A program made the position numbers and the translations under genes. Shown in pieces: positions 3,288 through 47,237 of a stretch of DNA of 64,000 nucleotides. The notes beneath the pieces are model-generated. The model was not told the origin of the DNA and did no database searches. It worked only from the letters and a program-made list of their open reading frames with translations. The DNA is from Chitinophagaceae bacterium. Its GTDB lineage: Bacteria; Bacteroidota; Bacteroidia; Chitinophagales; Chitinophagaceae. Where the stretch lies: contig JACMLY010000137.1 of NCBI GenBank assembly GCA_014379345.1, positions 62,001 to 126,000 of the forward strand. Direction: 5' to 3'. Position 1 is the stretch's first letter. Every line of letters begins with the position of its first letter.

Positions 3288-3756
3288 ATGTTTTCTTGCT
3301 ATATCCTTCCGAGTTGTAGTCGAATGTTTTCACGGAAGTATTTTTATAATTTGAATCGTACTTAACAAAAAAGTGTACATAGATAACCCTGCTCATTCGC
3401 ATTAACCAGGGTTGCAGCACAATCAGCAAGCCGATATTTATTCCCATCCACCAGAAAAAGCGATTGTCCCTCACTGACATTCCAATGAAAATATACCATG
3501 CAACAAAACTGACAATCGTTAGCACAATTGATAGTCCGTAGCTTACAAACCCGGTTCCATACCAAAACCCAACCTCCAGCTCGTAGGGCTGAGCACATTC
3601 GGGGCAACGATCGTACATGGATAAGACCTTCTTTAAATTCCAGGGATTGTTATTTGTAAACATCTTTCCTCTCCGGCACCTCGGGCATTTCATCGTGAAT
3701 ACACTCCAAAAAAAATTTGGCTTGCCCTTCTTTCCGCCTTCTGTATCTGTATTCAT
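3277..3756 (-). CDS. DUF983 zinc-ribbon membrane protein
   Basis: A 159-residue protein with two CxxC pairs, C24/C27 (MKCPRCRRG) and C51/C54 (DRCPECAQPYE), which form a zinc ribbon, followed by two membrane segments at about 70-92 and 102-118. The layout MKCPRCRxGK, then CPxC and FWYGTGFVSYG is characteristic of DUF983, a Bacteroidota and Alphaproteobacteria family of unknown function. Its 3' end overlaps that of the upstream plus-strand gene. No neighbour suggests a pathway. Confidence 0.85.
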   Translation of the reverse strand: MNTDTEGGKKGKPNFFWSVFTMKCPRCRRGKMFTNNNPWNLKKVLSMYDRCPECAQPYELEVGFWYGTGFVSYGLSIVLTIVSFVAWYIFIGMSVRDNRFFWWMGINIGLLIVLQPWLMRMSRVIYVHFFVKYDSNYKNTSVKTFDYNSEGYSKKTSTD

Positions 3757-41863: not shown

Positions 41864-41950
41864 TCGACTCCGCTCGATGCTTTGGAGGGTGGTTCGACTT
41901 CGCTCACCACTGACTTCGCTCACCACTGACTTCGCTGACGTTGCTCACCA
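41864..41950. repeat. Tandem 16-base repeats of the TGAGCGxAGTCGAA family
   Basis: GACTTCGCTCACCACT occurs twice in tandem (41896-41911 and 41912-41927) with a third partial unit (41928-41940); GACTCCGCTCGATGC at 41866-41880 is a diverged unit. Reverse complemented, the word reads GTGAGCGAAGTC. The array reaches into the 3' end of the DUF5723 gene, whose TGA stop is part of a unit. Related words occur at 48009-48035 and inside pdhC at 49742-49799. Confidence 0.8.
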
Positions 41951-43390
41951 TACTGAAGGCGGGCAATCCATGTTTTTTATTCGTCTTGTTTTTTCTGAGG
42001 AGGAAAAGAAATTTCGTACGACAATGGCAATGTAAGCACCTCCATTAAAAGCCCTGTTCTTGCTAAAGAGCCATCTCCAGTCATGAATGCCCATTAATAA
42101 AGGCCCGGCTTTAAAAGCACTACCCACCCACAATTGGCCCTGGGTATTTAGCTGAACAGGAAGATATAATCCCAACAACGAAGTTTCCCATCGGGGAGTA
42201 ACTGTTAAAAGGTTGAGTTCCCTAGTATGGAGATGCTCTTTATTTTGAGTGGAAAAAAAATTAATACTGAGTTCTCCGTTTATATAGAAGTGGTCGATGA
42301 TCGGCTTGTCTACATTAACCACCAGCCGGGTAGGTTGCCAGATGTAAAAATCGGGTCCTGAAGATTGTAATTGTTGAACAACGGTTTGAAGGCTATCATA
42401 AAAATCTTCAATGTCATCAGGTGAGGAGAATTTGTTTTCGAGATCTTCTTCGGAGACATCTGTAAGCACACCATTGAATTGCCGACTAAATTTTCCATGT
42501 TTGAAAAGATTTTTTCCGAGATCCAGCATTGAAACGCCTATTTTCCAATTGTACTCGAATTTTTCGACATCGTCATACTGTGGTGCGTAATCGTTTTTAA
42601 GTAAATATTCTACTCCAAGATCAATGCCCAGGCTTCCCTGGGTATATTTCAAAAAGTCTTTTCGATTTTTATCAGATGAATTATTATCCTGCAGCTTATC
42701 ATAGTTTGAAGAATATCCATACCTGCCGTTTGGGTCGGTTACAACGAATGTTGATGCCGATCCTGGTTGCGTTATTTCGGTAAACTGCATTTTATCCAAC
42801 TGGAGATAAAGTCCCGAAATACCCCGCACACCCTTGAGCGTTATACCCGCGCTTAACTGATCAAGATTAGAATTCCAGAGTATTTCACTGTAAGAGACAT
42901 ATATTTCAGCCCAACTATTATTTATCACCCTGCCACCCATTGAAGGAGCCGGCCTGTTAAATTGCAGGAAGCTGTTGATACTGGAAATGGTATCAATAAA
43001 TTTGAAAGGTTTAGATTTTATGTGTACGTAGTTTCGGGCGTTGAATCCAAAAGCAACGGCCCTGCGTGAATTTAATTTAAACCTGGTGTTTAATACGTGA
43101 AGATCCTGGCTTAGATGAACAAAGCGTTGTTTGTCTCCATTCGATAAATAAACATTCGCATCCGGAAGTCTGATCAGCGGCTCGGTTGAGCTAAAAGCAT
43201 TTGTACTGGATTTCAATTGAACGCTGAAAAGAGTGATATCCCAGTTGTAATGAGAATGATTTCCGGAAGCTGGATTATTATATATTCCGAGGCTACCCGC
43301 ATACGGGGAACCGTGAATGGCCTGGTAATTCTGGGCCCCGGAAATAGTGAACAAGCAAACTAATGCGCCTACAAAAACTGTCTTCTTCAT
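41945..43390 (-). CDS. DUF5723 family secreted or outer-membrane protein
   Basis: About 481 residues from the ATG at 43390; a TTG three codons earlier would overlap the neighbouring gene. A signal peptide (MKKTVFVGALVCLFTISGAQ) is followed by GSPYAGSLGIYNNPASGNH, VYLSNGDKQRFVHLSQDL, RRAVAFGFNARNY and many alternating strands (LPVQLNTQGQLWVGSAFKAGPLLMGIHDWRW), as in DUF5723 barrel-like proteins of Bacteroidota. The last residues (CPPSVW) and stop come from repeat DNA. It lies 5 bases after the FAD oxidoreductase stop on the same strand, so it may be co-expressed with the polyketide gene set. Confidence 0.75.
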   Translation of the reverse strand: MKKTVFVGALVCLFTISGAQNYQAIHGSPYAGSLGIYNNPASGNHSHYNWDITLFSVQLKSSTNAFSSTEPLIRLPDANVYLSNGDKQRFVHLSQDLHVLNTRFKLNSRRAVAFGFNARNYVHIKSKPFKFIDTISSINSFLQFNRPAPSMGGRVINNSWAEIYVSYSEILWNSNLDQLSAGITLKGVRGISGLYLQLDKMQFTEITQPGSASTFVVTDPNGRYGYSSNYDKLQDNNSSDKNRKDFLKYTQGSLGIDLGVEYLLKNDYAPQYDDVEKFEYNWKIGVSMLDLGKNLFKHGKFSRQFNGVLTDVSEEDLENKFSSPDDIEDFYDSLQTVVQQLQSSGPDFYIWQPTRLVVNVDKPIIDHFYINGELSINFFSTQNKEHLHTRELNLLTVTPRWETSLLGLYLPVQLNTQGQLWVGSAFKAGPLLMGIHDWRWLFSKNRAFNGGAYIAIVVRNFFSSSEKTRRIKNMDCPPSVW

Positions 43391-43395
43391 ATTTG

Positions 43396-44529
43396 TCAAA
43401 AGGGTTGGCCATGTGTTTGGCGTATCAAATATGTGATAAATTTTGGAAAGGGTTTAATAGATGTTATCAAAAAATTCGATAAAGTTTCGTCTCCAAAGAA
43501 TCTTTGTATAATCCTTCCAGCCTGAAGCCGGCTACCAAAATATTTTTCCCATTGCTGTGAGTACTGGGTTTCTAATTCAAAGCGGGTTGTTTTTTTGTGC
43601 AGAAACTGAGTAATTTCATCAAAAGCCAGCTTTGATCCATGAAGGGCCATGCTCATTCCATTTCCACAAAGAGGGGTGATCATGCCGGCCGCATCTCCCA
43701 TCATCAACACATGATTTTCCACCTGTGATTTTTTATTGAATGATATTCTTGAGATGGTCAGCGGCGCTTCGTATAAAAATTCGGATTCGGAAAATATCTT
43801 TCGGAGAAACGGATTTTTCATCAGAATAGTTTCCTCCATTAGCCTGATATTATTGTGGCTGCGTTTGATGTTTTCACCTTTGGTAAGATAGCAGAGGCAA
43901 TATTTTCCATCTTCGATTCTTGAAATGCCGCAGTAGCCATTTTCGAAGTTGTGCAGCGCGATCATGTCTTCCGGAAATGATGTTTTTACATGGTATTTTA
44001 CTCCCAGGTAATGATTTAGCTTGTTTGGCTTTACCTGCGTAAAATGTCGTTTCCATTTTACGTCCAGGTTGCTGCGCTTGCCAAAAGCGCCTGCAGCCAC
44101 TGTGGTTTCCGTTTCTCCAGCCGATGAAAAGATCACGAATGAATTATTGCGATAAATAATATCAGCCACTTTTGTTTCTTCAGCCAATACAACGCCTTCT
44201 TTACGGGCTATGCGTGCTAAAATATTGTCTAAACTAAACCGGCTGATACCAAATCCTCCCAAAGGAAGTGGATGTTCTATATATTTTCCGTTTGGTGCAC
44301 TGATCATCACACGATTGATTTGTGGAAGCTCCATATCGCTCAAAGGCACTCCAAGTTCCTGTAAAAAATTCCAGCTTTCAAGGCTGATATATTCACCGCA
44401 AACTTTATGGAACGGGTATTTTTCTTTCTCTAAAACAATGGTGCTATAACCGGCCCTGACGCATTGTATTGAAAGTGCCAGACCGGCTAGCCCCCCGCCT
44501 ATAACTGCAACGTCGTATGTGGATGAAAT
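43396..44529 (-). CDS. FAD-dependent oxidoreductase/monooxygenase (non-ATG start)
   Basis: About 377 residues if translation begins at the ATT at 44529; CTG at 44535 is the other choice, and the frame is open back to a TAG just beyond. The usual ATG/GTG search finds a GTG at 44349 that would remove the FAD site. The in-frame upstream part reads TYDVAVIGGGLAGLALSIQ, then GYSTIVLEKEKYPFHKVCGE, a complete dinucleotide loop and adjoining strand of the geranylgeranyl reductase/hydroxylase class. Downstream GDAAGMITPLCGNGMSMAL is the second FAD motif. It follows the methyltransferase gene with its stop overlapping the putative start. A hydroxylase or reductase acting on the polyketide or prenyl chain is likely. 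Confidence 0.75.
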   Translation of the reverse strand: MSSTYDVAVIGGGLAGLALSIQCVRAGYSTIVLEKEKYPFHKVCGEYISLESWNFLQELGVPLSDMELPQINRVMISAPNGKYIEHPLPLGGFGISRFSLDNILARIARKEGVVLAEETKVADIIYRNNSFVIFSSAGETETTVAAGAFGKRSNLDVKWKRHFTQVKPNKLNHYLGVKYHVKTSFPEDMIALHNFENGYCGISRIEDGKYCLCYLTKGENIKRSHNNIRLMEETILMKNPFLRKIFSESEFLYEAPLTISRISFNKKSQVENHVLMMGDAAGMITPLCGNGMSMALHGSKLAFDEITQFLHKKTTRFELETQYSQQWEKYFGSRLQAGRIIQRFFGDETLSNFLITSIKPFPKFITYLIRQTHGQPF

Positions 44530-44531
44530 GT

Positions 44532-45284
44532 TCAGTGGGAGCTATGTTGAGATTGAAAATCTAAAGAAACCGGTTCAGGCTCATGTATCGCAACTATCAA
44601 CCAGCGGAAAGCCCATTTCCAATAGATCGAGAACTGCCGGATTTCAGCTGCATGAAGTAAAGCCATCCATTCCTGTTTGGCAAATCCTCTTGCTACAGAT
44701 AATGGAGCATCATTTTTTACCAGGTAACTTTTTGAAAAGATCCGCGATAACCATTTAATCGAATGATAAGCTACAATATGCCTGTGCAGATCATTTATAA
44801 AAAAACCTGCAGTGGCATTTGTTCTCATCCATTGTAACATATCAACAAGTTCTTCATTGCTGAAATGATGACAAAATAAAGATGAAAAAATAATTCCCGG
44901 TTTTTTCTCAAAATTCACCTTTTTGTAATCAGAGTGAATAAATCTGGCTTTAAGGTCTCTGCACATATCATTGGCTACCTCTATGCAGTCGCCATTTATA
45001 TCTATGCCAATGAAAGATGCATGGATATTATTTTTTTTGCACCAGCCTGCAATTGCTTTCAAATTATCTCCCCCTCCGCATCCTATCTCGCAAATTAGAA
45101 TCTCCGGCAAACCTGCCGGCTTGCCGTGGCGAATTATTTTCTTCAGTCCGCTAACGGTTATCTGATGCCCGCCTAAATAGGTATTGATGAAATTCAATTC
45201 CTGCATATTCCTCCTGATATCAGCAAAAGGAATATCATTGCGATCAAGCAATTCTTTGTGGTATGAACGCCGCGAGAGATCCAT
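44532..45284 (-). CDS. SAM-dependent methyltransferase
   Basis: A 250-residue class I methyltransferase. LICEIGCGGGDNLKAIAGWCK is SAM motif I, ASFIGIDINGDCIEVAND the second strand, IIFSSLFCHHFSNEELVDMLQWM a motif typical of aromatic-compound methyltransferases, and ATAGFFINDLHRHIVAY follows. It lies 1 base after the type III polyketide synthase stop and directly before the FAD oxidoreductase, like the PKS-methyltransferase-hydroxylase set known to make methylated phenolic lipids in Streptomyces (srsABC type). Methylation of a resorcinol or quinol oxygen or ring carbon is inferred. Confidence 0.88.
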   Translation of the reverse strand: MDLSRRSYHKELLDRNDIPFADIRRNMQELNFINTYLGGHQITVSGLKKIIRHGKPAGLPEILICEIGCGGGDNLKAIAGWCKKNNIHASFIGIDINGDCIEVANDMCRDLKARFIHSDYKKVNFEKKPGIIFSSLFCHHFSNEELVDMLQWMRTNATAGFFINDLHRHIVAYHSIKWLSRIFSKSYLVKNDAPLSVARGFAKQEWMALLHAAEIRQFSIYWKWAFRWLIVAIHEPEPVSLDFQSQHSSH

Positions 45285-45285
45285 T

Positions 45286-46380
45286 TTACATGGAAGCTAC
45301 AAAAGTTTCCATTGTAAGCCCCGGGCCAAAGGCTGCCCCGTATACAGTTGCATTTTCTGTGTGTTGATGCACGAATTCGTCCATCATTTCCTTTAGTACA
45401 AATAGAATGGTGGGAGAGGACATATTTCCGTAACGACGTAACACATCGTATGAATTTCTTAATTCACCATTTTTGAACTGAAGGCTTTTATGGATTGCTT
45501 CCAGTATTTTTTTTCCACCCGGGTGAACGCACCAATGTGTTATTTTATCAGGTGAAATAGCGGTATTTTGTAATGAGCGTTTAACAAGTGGCTCAAAATC
45601 TTCTTCGATCAGTTCCGGCACATATCCGCTAAGGGTCATTAAGAATCCTGTAGAAGATAGTTCCCAGGCCATATCTTTTTTGCCCTTGGGGATCACCTCC
45701 GAATAGAAATTGTTCAAATGCAATCCCCGGAGTTTGTGTTCGTCTGGTGTTACGAGCACCGCGGCGCTACCATCTCCGAATAGCAAGCTCGAAGCAATGT
45801 TATCGATGGTTGCCTCACGTTGAAAATGAAGCGTACATAACTCAGTGCAAACGATCAATACTTTTGCCGATGTGTTTGTATTGCAAATGGCGTCTGCCAT
45901 CTTTAGCGCATGGATAGCAGCATAGCAACCCATAAAATTAACAGATGTGCGATAAATGGTTTTTGGAAGATCCAGTAATTCCATCACCTGTAAATCTAAT
46001 CCCGGAGCGCTCATGCCTGTACAACTTACGGTAATGAGATGTGTAATTTCTTTGTCGCGTATTTTCCCTTCCAGACAATTCCTGATGGCATCTACAGATA
46101 ACGGGCCCGCATAGCGCTGATAATATACCATTCGCTGTTCAAGCGAAGGGAATGGATCAAGGTTTTCGGCCTGCGGATAAAATCTCCATTCAGGTAATGG
46201 GCGACTGTAGTCTGATATCACTGAATAACGGGCATCAATACTACTTTGGTTATATAAGAACCTTAATTTACGCTTATCACCTTCATTGAAAGCATAAATA
46301 CGTTGCATGAAGTGCAAAATGGAAGACTGTTCATGTCTGAATCCCGGAACTGCAGTGCCTATTGATACGATCTTACTCAA
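45286..46380 (-). CDS. Type III polyketide synthase (chalcone/stilbene synthase family)
   Basis: A 364-residue homodimeric ketosynthase that extends an acyl-CoA starter with malonyl-CoA. The catalytic triad is complete: C120 in VSCTGMSAPGLDL, H286 in WCVHPGGKK and N319 in YGNMSSPTILF. FGDGSAAVLV and the GAAFGPGLT end complete the family set. It groups by sequence style with bacterial alkylresorcinol/alkylpyrone synthases rather than plant enzymes. The start is TTG at 46380 (SKIVSIGTAVPG follows), overlapping the UbiA stop as TTGA. Flanking genes for prenyl transfer, methylation and oxidation imply an aromatic lipid product. The starter and chain length are not visible. Confidence 0.95.
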   Translation of the reverse strand: MSKIVSIGTAVPGFRHEQSSILHFMQRIYAFNEGDKRKLRFLYNQSSIDARYSVISDYSRPLPEWRFYPQAENLDPFPSLEQRMVYYQRYAGPLSVDAIRNCLEGKIRDKEITHLITVSCTGMSAPGLDLQVMELLDLPKTIYRTSVNFMGCYAAIHALKMADAICNTNTSAKVLIVCTELCTLHFQREATIDNIASSLLFGDGSAAVLVTPDEHKLRGLHLNNFYSEVIPKGKKDMAWELSSTGFLMTLSGYVPELIEEDFEPLVKRSLQNTAISPDKITHWCVHPGGKKILEAIHKSLQFKNGELRNSYDVLRRYGNMSSPTILFVLKEMMDEFVHQHTENATVYGAAFGPGLTMETFVASM

Positions 46381-47237
46381 ATTAACCTCCCTGTTAGTAT
46401 AATGAGAAATGCAATATTTGTACAGCTGGAAGCTATGATATTCATTCGCATGGTATGTTTATAATCAGCGGCGCCGGTATTCTTCCATACCTGTATTGCC
46501 CAGTTGAAAAAATATACGAGAATTGGCAACATGGCAGTTGCTATAACAAAGAATTTATTTTCTTCAGATCTGCTACTGAAATAATAAAATAATGTACACA
46601 TTGCCATCAAATAGATAATAGCCGTAAAAATAAAGGTGCCCCTGTATCCCAACATATAACTCAGTGTTATAACCTTATCGCGTTTATCAGCCTCATGTTG
46701 ATAGATCTGGGTAAGCGGATAAAATCCTCCGATCAGCAAACTGCTGACTATCAAACCCAATAGTGGTACTGACAATGTTTTTTCCGTACTGGATCCATGA
46801 TACACCAGAAAGAACGTTAAGCCTCCCTGAAAAATGATCACCGTCAAATAACCGATAACAGGATATTTTTTTAGCCTGATCCTCCTGTAACTGTAGGCCC
46901 TGGAGGCAAGTATATAGGCCACCACACCTGCAACAAGCCAAACACTTATCACAAAACTTAGGGCCACCGCCAATATATCCATTACAACACTTGTCCAAAA
47001 TAATTGTTTAGTGGGCTGCAAAGGATTTTTTATTCCTCCAATGCTCCCCTCATCCCTGTCCATATACGAATTGTATCCGTTGCTCGATGGATAGACAACA
47101 AAATGTAACAGAAAAAATATGAAAATGGCGTGCCAGCTGTTTATATGCGGAACCTGGCTCAGGGCAAAAAGATAGACTGGAAGTAAAAACAAAGAAAAAT
47201 GAAACCGGAGTAGCTGTATAGTAGATTTTTTCAACAC
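46377..47237 (-). CDS. UbiA family prenyltransferase
   Basis: A 286-residue membrane enzyme with about eight membrane segments. The first aspartate-rich motif is NSYMDRDEGSIGGIKNP (N56, D60, D62 region) and the second QIYQHEADKRDKVITLS. Both bind magnesium-diphosphate of the isoprenyl donor. The start is GTG at 47237, with TTG in the next codon. It is the first gene of the set UbiA-PKS-methyltransferase-FAD oxidoreductase and overlaps the PKS start by 4 bases. It may prenylate the polyketide-derived ring. A housekeeping menaquinone or heme role (MenA, CtaB) is unlikely given the company and diverged motif spacing. Confidence 0.88.
   Translation of the reverse strand: MLKKSTIQLLRFHFSLFLLPVYLFALSQVPHINSWHAIFIFFLLHFVVYPSSNGYNSYMDRDEGSIGGIKNPLQPTKQLFWTSVVMDILAVALSFVISVWLVAGVVAYILASRAYSYRRIRLKKYPVIGYLTVIIFQGGLTFFLVYHGSSTEKTLSVPLLGLIVSSLLIGGFYPLTQIYQHEADKRDKVITLSYMLGYRGTFIFTAIIYLMAMCTLFYYFSSRSEENKFFVIATAMLPILVYFFNWAIQVWKNTGAADYKHTMRMNIIASSCTNIAFLIILTGRLI

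Follow-up and report, generated by a model that had tools for sequence, protein, structure and literature searches.

A conserved UbiA–type III polyketide synthase operon of Bacteroidota, predicted to make a membrane phenolic lipid

Four adjacent genes in a 64,000-nucleotide stretch of DNA from a Chitinophagaceae bacterium (GenBank assembly GCA_014379345.1, contig JACMLY010000137.1, positions 62,001 to 126,000 of the forward strand; hereafter, the window) encode a UbiA-fold membrane transferase, a type III polyketide synthase (PKS), a methyltransferase and a flavin adenine dinucleotide (FAD)-dependent enzyme. Together they form a real, conserved operon whose parts co-occur across the Bacteroidota. 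Judged from its genes, the operon probably directs synthesis of a membrane phenolic lipid, a prenylated, methylated and hydroxylated alkylresorcinol or quinone, to which we assign a probability of about 0.62. New here are the distribution in Bacteroidota, the co-occurrence of UbiA and PKS, and a UbiA subfamily whose metal motifs are altered.

The operon and its conservation

The original prediction, made from the DNA letters, placed the four genes, tightly joined, on the minus strand, and their coordinates and Pfam matches agree with it. The UbiA and PKS genes overlap by 4 bases, and the PKS and methyltransferase genes lie 1 base apart. Only a single match to the window PKS was found in its own genome. 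The genes and the sites discussed below are as follows.

46377..47237, minus strand: UbiA-fold membrane transferase, 286 amino acids, first gene of the operon (PF01040, E = 3e-18)
45286..46380, minus strand: type III PKS, 364 amino acids (PF00195, E = 7.4e-26; PF02797, E = 4.5e-26; catalytic triad)
44532..45284, minus strand: class I S-adenosylmethionine-dependent methyltransferase, 250 amino acids (PF13649, E = 2.5e-10)
43396..44535, minus strand: FAD-dependent monooxygenase-like enzyme, about 379 amino acids, probable CTG start (frame reading, alignment and model)
47052..47072, minus strand: first UbiA metal motif, N56-SYM-D60-R-D62 (residues in 80/80 of the best-80 loci)
46677..46700, minus strand: second UbiA metal motif, Q180-HEA-D184, then D187 (residues in 80/80 of the best-80 loci)
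45664..45666, minus strand: codon for PKS Trp239, equivalent to chalcone synthase (CHS) Gly256 and ArsB Trp281 (alignment and spacing)
44479..44499, minus strand: Rossmann FAD motif GGGLAGL (in-frame reading; nearly invariant in 33 sequences)

When named genomes were scanned with a UbiA profile, at least 576 relatives were reported, the best 80 of which were examined; Niastella and Segetibacter, both Chitinophagaceae, are among the carriers of the operon. UbiA, PKS, methyltransferase and FAD genes follow one another on a single strand in 73 of these 80 loci, the FAD gene being cut by a contig end in a few; the remaining 7 loci sit on contigs that stop inside the gene set or within 114 bases of it. 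This survey of gene order, which the original prediction had named as a check, shows the arrangement to be kept in relatives. Alignment and profile samples drawn from it covered 50 of the 80 named loci (A3) and 32 of the 73 full-set loci (A4), and the PKS profile (A2) held 19 rows. Another set of larger loci gave the identical order in 12 of 20. Elsewhere the arrangement varies: UbiA and PKS lie together with the FAD gene about 330 kb off on the same contig (L036), UbiA is placed after the FAD gene (L046), or, at a locus fetched to base 3300 (L047 in G049), a divergent UbiA fragment lies just beyond, at the contig end. One contig ends in the PKS gene, and UbiA is found on another contig next to a PKS fragment (L052). 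In other families, UbiA is divergent beside PKS, lies between PKS and FAD, or stands in the window's order (L177). Four more distant PKS loci (L048 to L051) belong to genomes that lack this UbiA. The housekeeping genes dnaX and pdhC are neighbours common to part of the loci.

Co-occurrence extends beyond linkage. Among 59 genomes, that of the window included, orthologues of the PKS (E<1e-70, the next match being at 2.9e-40) and of UbiA (E<=1e-10) were present in the same 17. Within the window's own family, both occur in 15 of 36 genomes, and their presence is therefore patchy. Across 296 Bacteroidota genomes, UbiA was found at E<=1e-10 in 47, all 47 of which also had a PKS match at E<=1e-60, giving a hypergeometric value of 5e-20 that ignores relatedness. 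Strong UbiA matches (E<1e-70) were seen in 21 genomes, and a PKS match at E<=1e-60 accompanied every one (21/21), inside the fetched stretch in 16 and elsewhere in the genome in 5. In three of these five genomes with unlinked UbiA, the methyltransferase and FAD genes adjoin the PKS gene. Among the unlinked cases, the FAD gene lies about 3 kb from PKS in G200 and on another contig in G244. An FAD orthologue was present in all six genomes picked because no FAD gene had been seen beside PKS. The 26 weaker UbiA matches all belong to one family (f42), and the nine that were aligned carry the unusual metal motif described below; UbiA is not beside PKS in either of the two f42 genomes for which larger surroundings were fetched. 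The f42 UbiA proteins (L161 to L169) are distant, with 24-30% identity and QxxxD, and all 26 f42 genomes with such a UbiA match also have a type III PKS match.

The polyketide synthase and its cyclisation site

The window PKS has both domains of the chalcone synthase superfamily together with a Cys-His-Asn triad formed by Cys152, His286 and Asn319, as originally predicted. The triad is invariant in relatives; among the named loci covered by the alignment, Cys is found in 78/78, His in 76/76 and Asn in 75/75, counts that omit loci in which the contig or the alignment stopped short of the residue in question.

A residue that bears on the product is Trp239, which is present in 77/77 named loci covered by the alignment and in 10/10 loci that are unlinked or from f42. 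An alignment to stilbene synthase, read by eye, pairs Trp239 with CHS Gly256 and Met248 with CHS Phe265. The nine-residue spacing between Trp239 and Met248 matches that of Gly284 and Met293 in ArsC and of residues 256 and 265 in CHS; ArsB itself lies outside the alignment. In the available part of the source, ArsB carries Trp281 at the position of ArsC Gly284 (PMC6274091). Comparison with alkylresorcinol synthases, another check named at the outset, thus places Trp239 at the site of ArsB Trp281, where Trp favours resorcinol over pyrone in ArsB/ArsC, and Trp239 and Met248 fit this pattern. FAD-methyltransferase-PKS clusters without UbiA have Phe, not Trp, at the cyclisation site.

The PKS might instead make alkylpyrones or acylphloroglucinols. 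Sequence is a poor guide to the specificity of type III PKSs, and a conserved type III PKS cluster of myxobacteria has been assigned to alkylpyrones in the portion of that work available. The invariance of Trp239 nevertheless makes such products unlikely. In the alignment, PKS18, an alkylpyrone synthase, has Leu at this position. Moreover, exchange of this one residue in ArsB (W281G) abolishes alkylresorcinol synthesis and brings about alkylpyrone synthesis, according to the accessible text (PMC6274091).

The UbiA-fold enzyme

Membership of the first gene product in the UbiA superfamily is evident from both its Pfam match and its predicted fold. The AlphaFold model (mean predicted local distance difference test score 95.6) has archaeal UbiA homologues as its top matches among solved structures, with Z scores of 21.8-23.3 over 257-273 residues; the best match, VIA, has a Z score of 23.3 and a root mean square deviation (rmsd) of 3.4 over 268 aligned residues. 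The metal-binding motifs depart from the canonical prenyltransferase pattern, with NxxxDxD and QxxxD standing in place of NxxxDxxxD and DxxxD. N56, D60 and D62 are present in 80/80 of the best-80 loci, and position 64 is variable, with Asp in 4/80. Likewise, Q180, D184 and D187 occur in 80/80, the Gln replacing the first Asp of DxxxD. A sequence-profile alignment pairs Q180 with an Asp of the solved structures 4od4 and 4tq3, and N56, D60, D62 and D184 are retained. There were also 46 UbiA matches besides the window's own, with surroundings obtained for the best 30; in the 29 further UbiA loci aligned from these, Q180 and D184 are kept in all, and D187 is often lost. No NCBIfam model matches at its cut-off, and the protein's sequence places it in a subfamily without an NCBIfam name, marked by NxxxDxD...QxxxD. 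Relatives of this UbiA were not found on plasmids at E<=1e-3, and none were confirmed in viral contigs.

The altered motifs raise the question of what is transferred. PKS, methyltransferase and FAD enzyme could by themselves yield an alkylquinone, as in pkqABC and srsABC, with UbiA moving a group other than prenyl (for example, another diphosphate-activated group) or serving a different partner. Consistent with this, DxxxD has Gln180 instead of its first Asp in 80/80 of the best-80 loci, with the same change in distant relatives, NxxxDxxxD has mostly lost its third Asp, and a UbiA-fold phosphoribosyltransferase (8j8j) is among the fold matches (Z 17.6, rmsd 3.7, 247 aligned). On the other hand, the nearest folds, 4tq3 and 4tq4 (Z 23.3), were solved with geranyl diphosphate or dimethylallyl diphosphate, and retention of N56, D60, D62 and D184 also argues for prenyl transfer. 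A non-prenyl role for UbiA is accordingly conceivable but doubtful.

The FAD enzyme and the methyltransferase

For the FAD gene, the stop at 43396 stands as originally predicted, and the GTG start at 44349 does not, since it would remove the FAD-binding N-terminus. The frame extends about 62 codons upstream of that GTG through YDVAVIGGGLAGLALS, which holds the FAD-binding motif GGGLAGL. Among 32 aligned FAD relatives, 31 have GGG(L/M)AGL, and in the 32nd (L103) the matched stretch begins later. Because the window contains no ATG, GTG or TTG upstream of this conserved motif in the FAD frame, the likeliest start appears to be the CTG at 44535, where CTGA would overlap the methyltransferase stop.

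Against the geranylgeranyl reductase family, the full-length FAD protein reaches 93.9 bits, below the cut-off of 158.8, and the methyltransferase scores 106 bits against PRK06202 of NCBIfam, below a cut-off of 243. The model of the FAD enzyme (mean score 89.3) is nearest to flavin halogenases, followed by monooxygenases and a geranylgeranyl reductase-like protein. In two genomes without this UbiA (G004 and G009; L048 and L049), the FAD and methyltransferase genes adjoin a type III PKS, so both enzymes probably act on the polyketide. A role for the FAD enzyme on the aromatic ring therefore seems the simplest reading, and one as a prenyl-chain reductase appears less likely, because FAD homologues adjoin methyltransferase and PKS where this UbiA is absent. 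Together with L051, these two loci represent a second, distant type of FAD-methyltransferase-PKS cluster with its own tree group (100/100).

Relation to known pathways

The agq cluster of Actinoplanes missouriensis, which we take to be agqA-D and to include methyltransferase and FAD parts, resembles the window operon in several respects. In the available parts of the sources, agq involves an alkylresorcinol-type type III PKS, prenylation by a membrane-bound enzyme and hydroxylation, as predicted for the window operon, and the methoxy group of the agq product implies methylation; agq is actinobacterial, and it is likened to the window operon by description, not by sequence. The window likewise brings together PKS, methyltransferase, FAD and UbiA-like genes, the gene content taken here for agq. 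As described in the accessible portions of these papers, the alkylresorcinols formed by AgqA subsequently undergo prenylation and hydroxylation (PMC10896814), the prenyltransferase is membrane-bound (PMC4044012), and the products are 6-alkyl-4-O-dihydrogeranyl-2-methoxyhydroquinones (PMC3569393).

The pkqABC and srsABC genes of Mycobacterium and Streptomyces also combine PKS, methyltransferase and oxidoreductase, in this case to produce alkylbenzoquinones, and PkqA shares the resorcinol Trp with the window PKS, but they number three and the main text available makes no mention of UbiA or of prenylation (PMC9927152). The hidABC genes and the methyltransferase-FAD-PKS operons of Planctomycetota share the same three core functions, as far as the available text goes. 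A planctomycetal PKS produced alkylresorcinols in a heterologous host, whereas that paper makes no use of the word prenyltransferase. One cyanobacterial hierridin-like cluster is described, in the text available, as encoding a prenyltransferase. The loseolamycin locus of Micromonospora endolithica has UbiA and methyltransferase genes near an alkylresorcinol type III PKS, but in the portion of the source available an acyl-CoA dehydrogenase gene separates the methyltransferase and PKS genes, and UbiA is given no role. The open-access literature searched (titles and the beginnings of abstracts) contained no description of this gene set in Bacteroidota.

The claim of an undescribed pathway, made for these genes at the outset, thus needs narrowing. 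A single functional gene set, its kinship to the srs type and a likely prenylated alkylresorcinol or quinone product all stand; the agq precedent is published, and since agq makes prenylated methoxyhydroquinones by way of a type III PKS, this is not a wholly new kind of pathway.

Membership of the genes in menaquinone, flexirubin or carotenoid synthesis was also considered. The UbiA family includes menaquinone prenyltransferases, and DarB-type ketosynthases make resorcinols related to those expected here. However, the window's own genome has MqnC over its cut-off elsewhere, a separate UbiA (L136) over the cut-off of UbiA_other (MqnP models match it below theirs), and a StlD/DarB-family gene over its cut-off on another contig. 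A heme O synthase gene is present as well, and the window UbiA is not the sole candidate for a menaquinone prenyltransferase. With these genes located elsewhere, the operon is probably not the menaquinone or flexirubin route, and the refutation through known pathways that the original prediction had allowed for is unlikely on both counts; carotenoid genes were not searched. Overall, membership in any of the three pathways is highly improbable.

Distribution, probable transfer and the downstream gene

A PKS tree of 39 chosen loci plus the window groups the PKS of Emticicia (Leadbetterellaceae, L121) with three Chitinophagaceae rows (100/99). The position of this PKS inside a Chitinophagaceae grouping, along with the complete Emticicia operon, suggests transfer of the operon, and horizontal transfer is the likely origin by these sequence criteria. 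Among three other genomes of the window's genus, two (G002 and G003) lack the operon. The third (G001, L041) has it at 59% PKS identity, and none of the genes that flank the operon in the window appear there in 17 kb of sequence. Metagenome-assembled genomes labelled Williamsia, Sphingobacterium and Flavobacterium (L095, L101 and L128) contain the operon, and at least the Williamsia label looks like misbinning.

One further gene follows the operon in the same direction.

41945..43399, minus strand: downstream open reading frame, 484 amino acids, TTG start as listed (4-base overlap with the FAD stop)

It had been labelled a DUF5723 surface protein. That label is unsupported: neither this protein nor any of 10 homologues matches Pfam at E<=0.01 (0/11). 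A homologue lies immediately 3' of the gene set in 16 of the best-80 loci, and the proposed link of the gene set to a surface protein is weak. The 10 homologues are 34-41% identical to the window copy.

A predicted membrane lipid and its significance

In the proposed pathway, the PKS would load a fatty acyl group and extend it with three malonyl units, after which aldol condensation would close the chain to give a 5-alkylresorcinol. The methyltransferase and FAD monooxygenase would then modify the ring to a methoxy- or methyl-hydroquinone or quinone, and the membrane UbiA would attach a prenyl group to a ring carbon or oxygen. Inferred here are the substrates, the sequence of reactions, the donor of the prenyl group and the lipid's redox-active or membrane-modifying role.

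Several points weigh against a prenylated alkylresorcinol or quinone. Two canonical metal-binding Asp residues are missing from UbiA, and its prenyl diphosphate donor is therefore not assured. By profile and modelled fold, the FAD enzyme resembles geranylgeranyl reductases and halogenases, and not a proven ring hydroxylase. FAD homologues with 42-45% identity reside on Bernardetia and Hymenobacter plasmids, with no annotated PKS within 7 kb. PKS matches at E<=1e-60 occur in 130 of the 296 Bacteroidota genomes, in 83 of them without UbiA at E<=1e-10; since three rows of profile A2 are of a second PKS type, some of the 130 are not orthologues. The co-occurrence counts are uncorrected for phylogeny, and the lipid product is a prediction from the genes.

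If the prediction of a prenylated alkylresorcinol or quinone is true, many Bacteroidota hold a membrane aromatic lipid for which the literature searched describes no gene set. Polyketide quinones serve as electron carriers in Mycobacterium and are found in Streptomyces spores, according to the available part of the source (PMC9927152), and the operon's lipid would be a conserved Bacteroidota version of such quinones. More tentatively, and with low odds, the operon may provide a hybrid polyketide-isoprenoid quinone across Bacteroidota, made by a UbiA with a rewired metal site; in the membrane it would complement menaquinone as another quinone, with a respiratory or protective function. A UbiA subfamily with an invariant Gln in place of Asp would also offer a route to how membrane enzymes pick their donor and acceptor.

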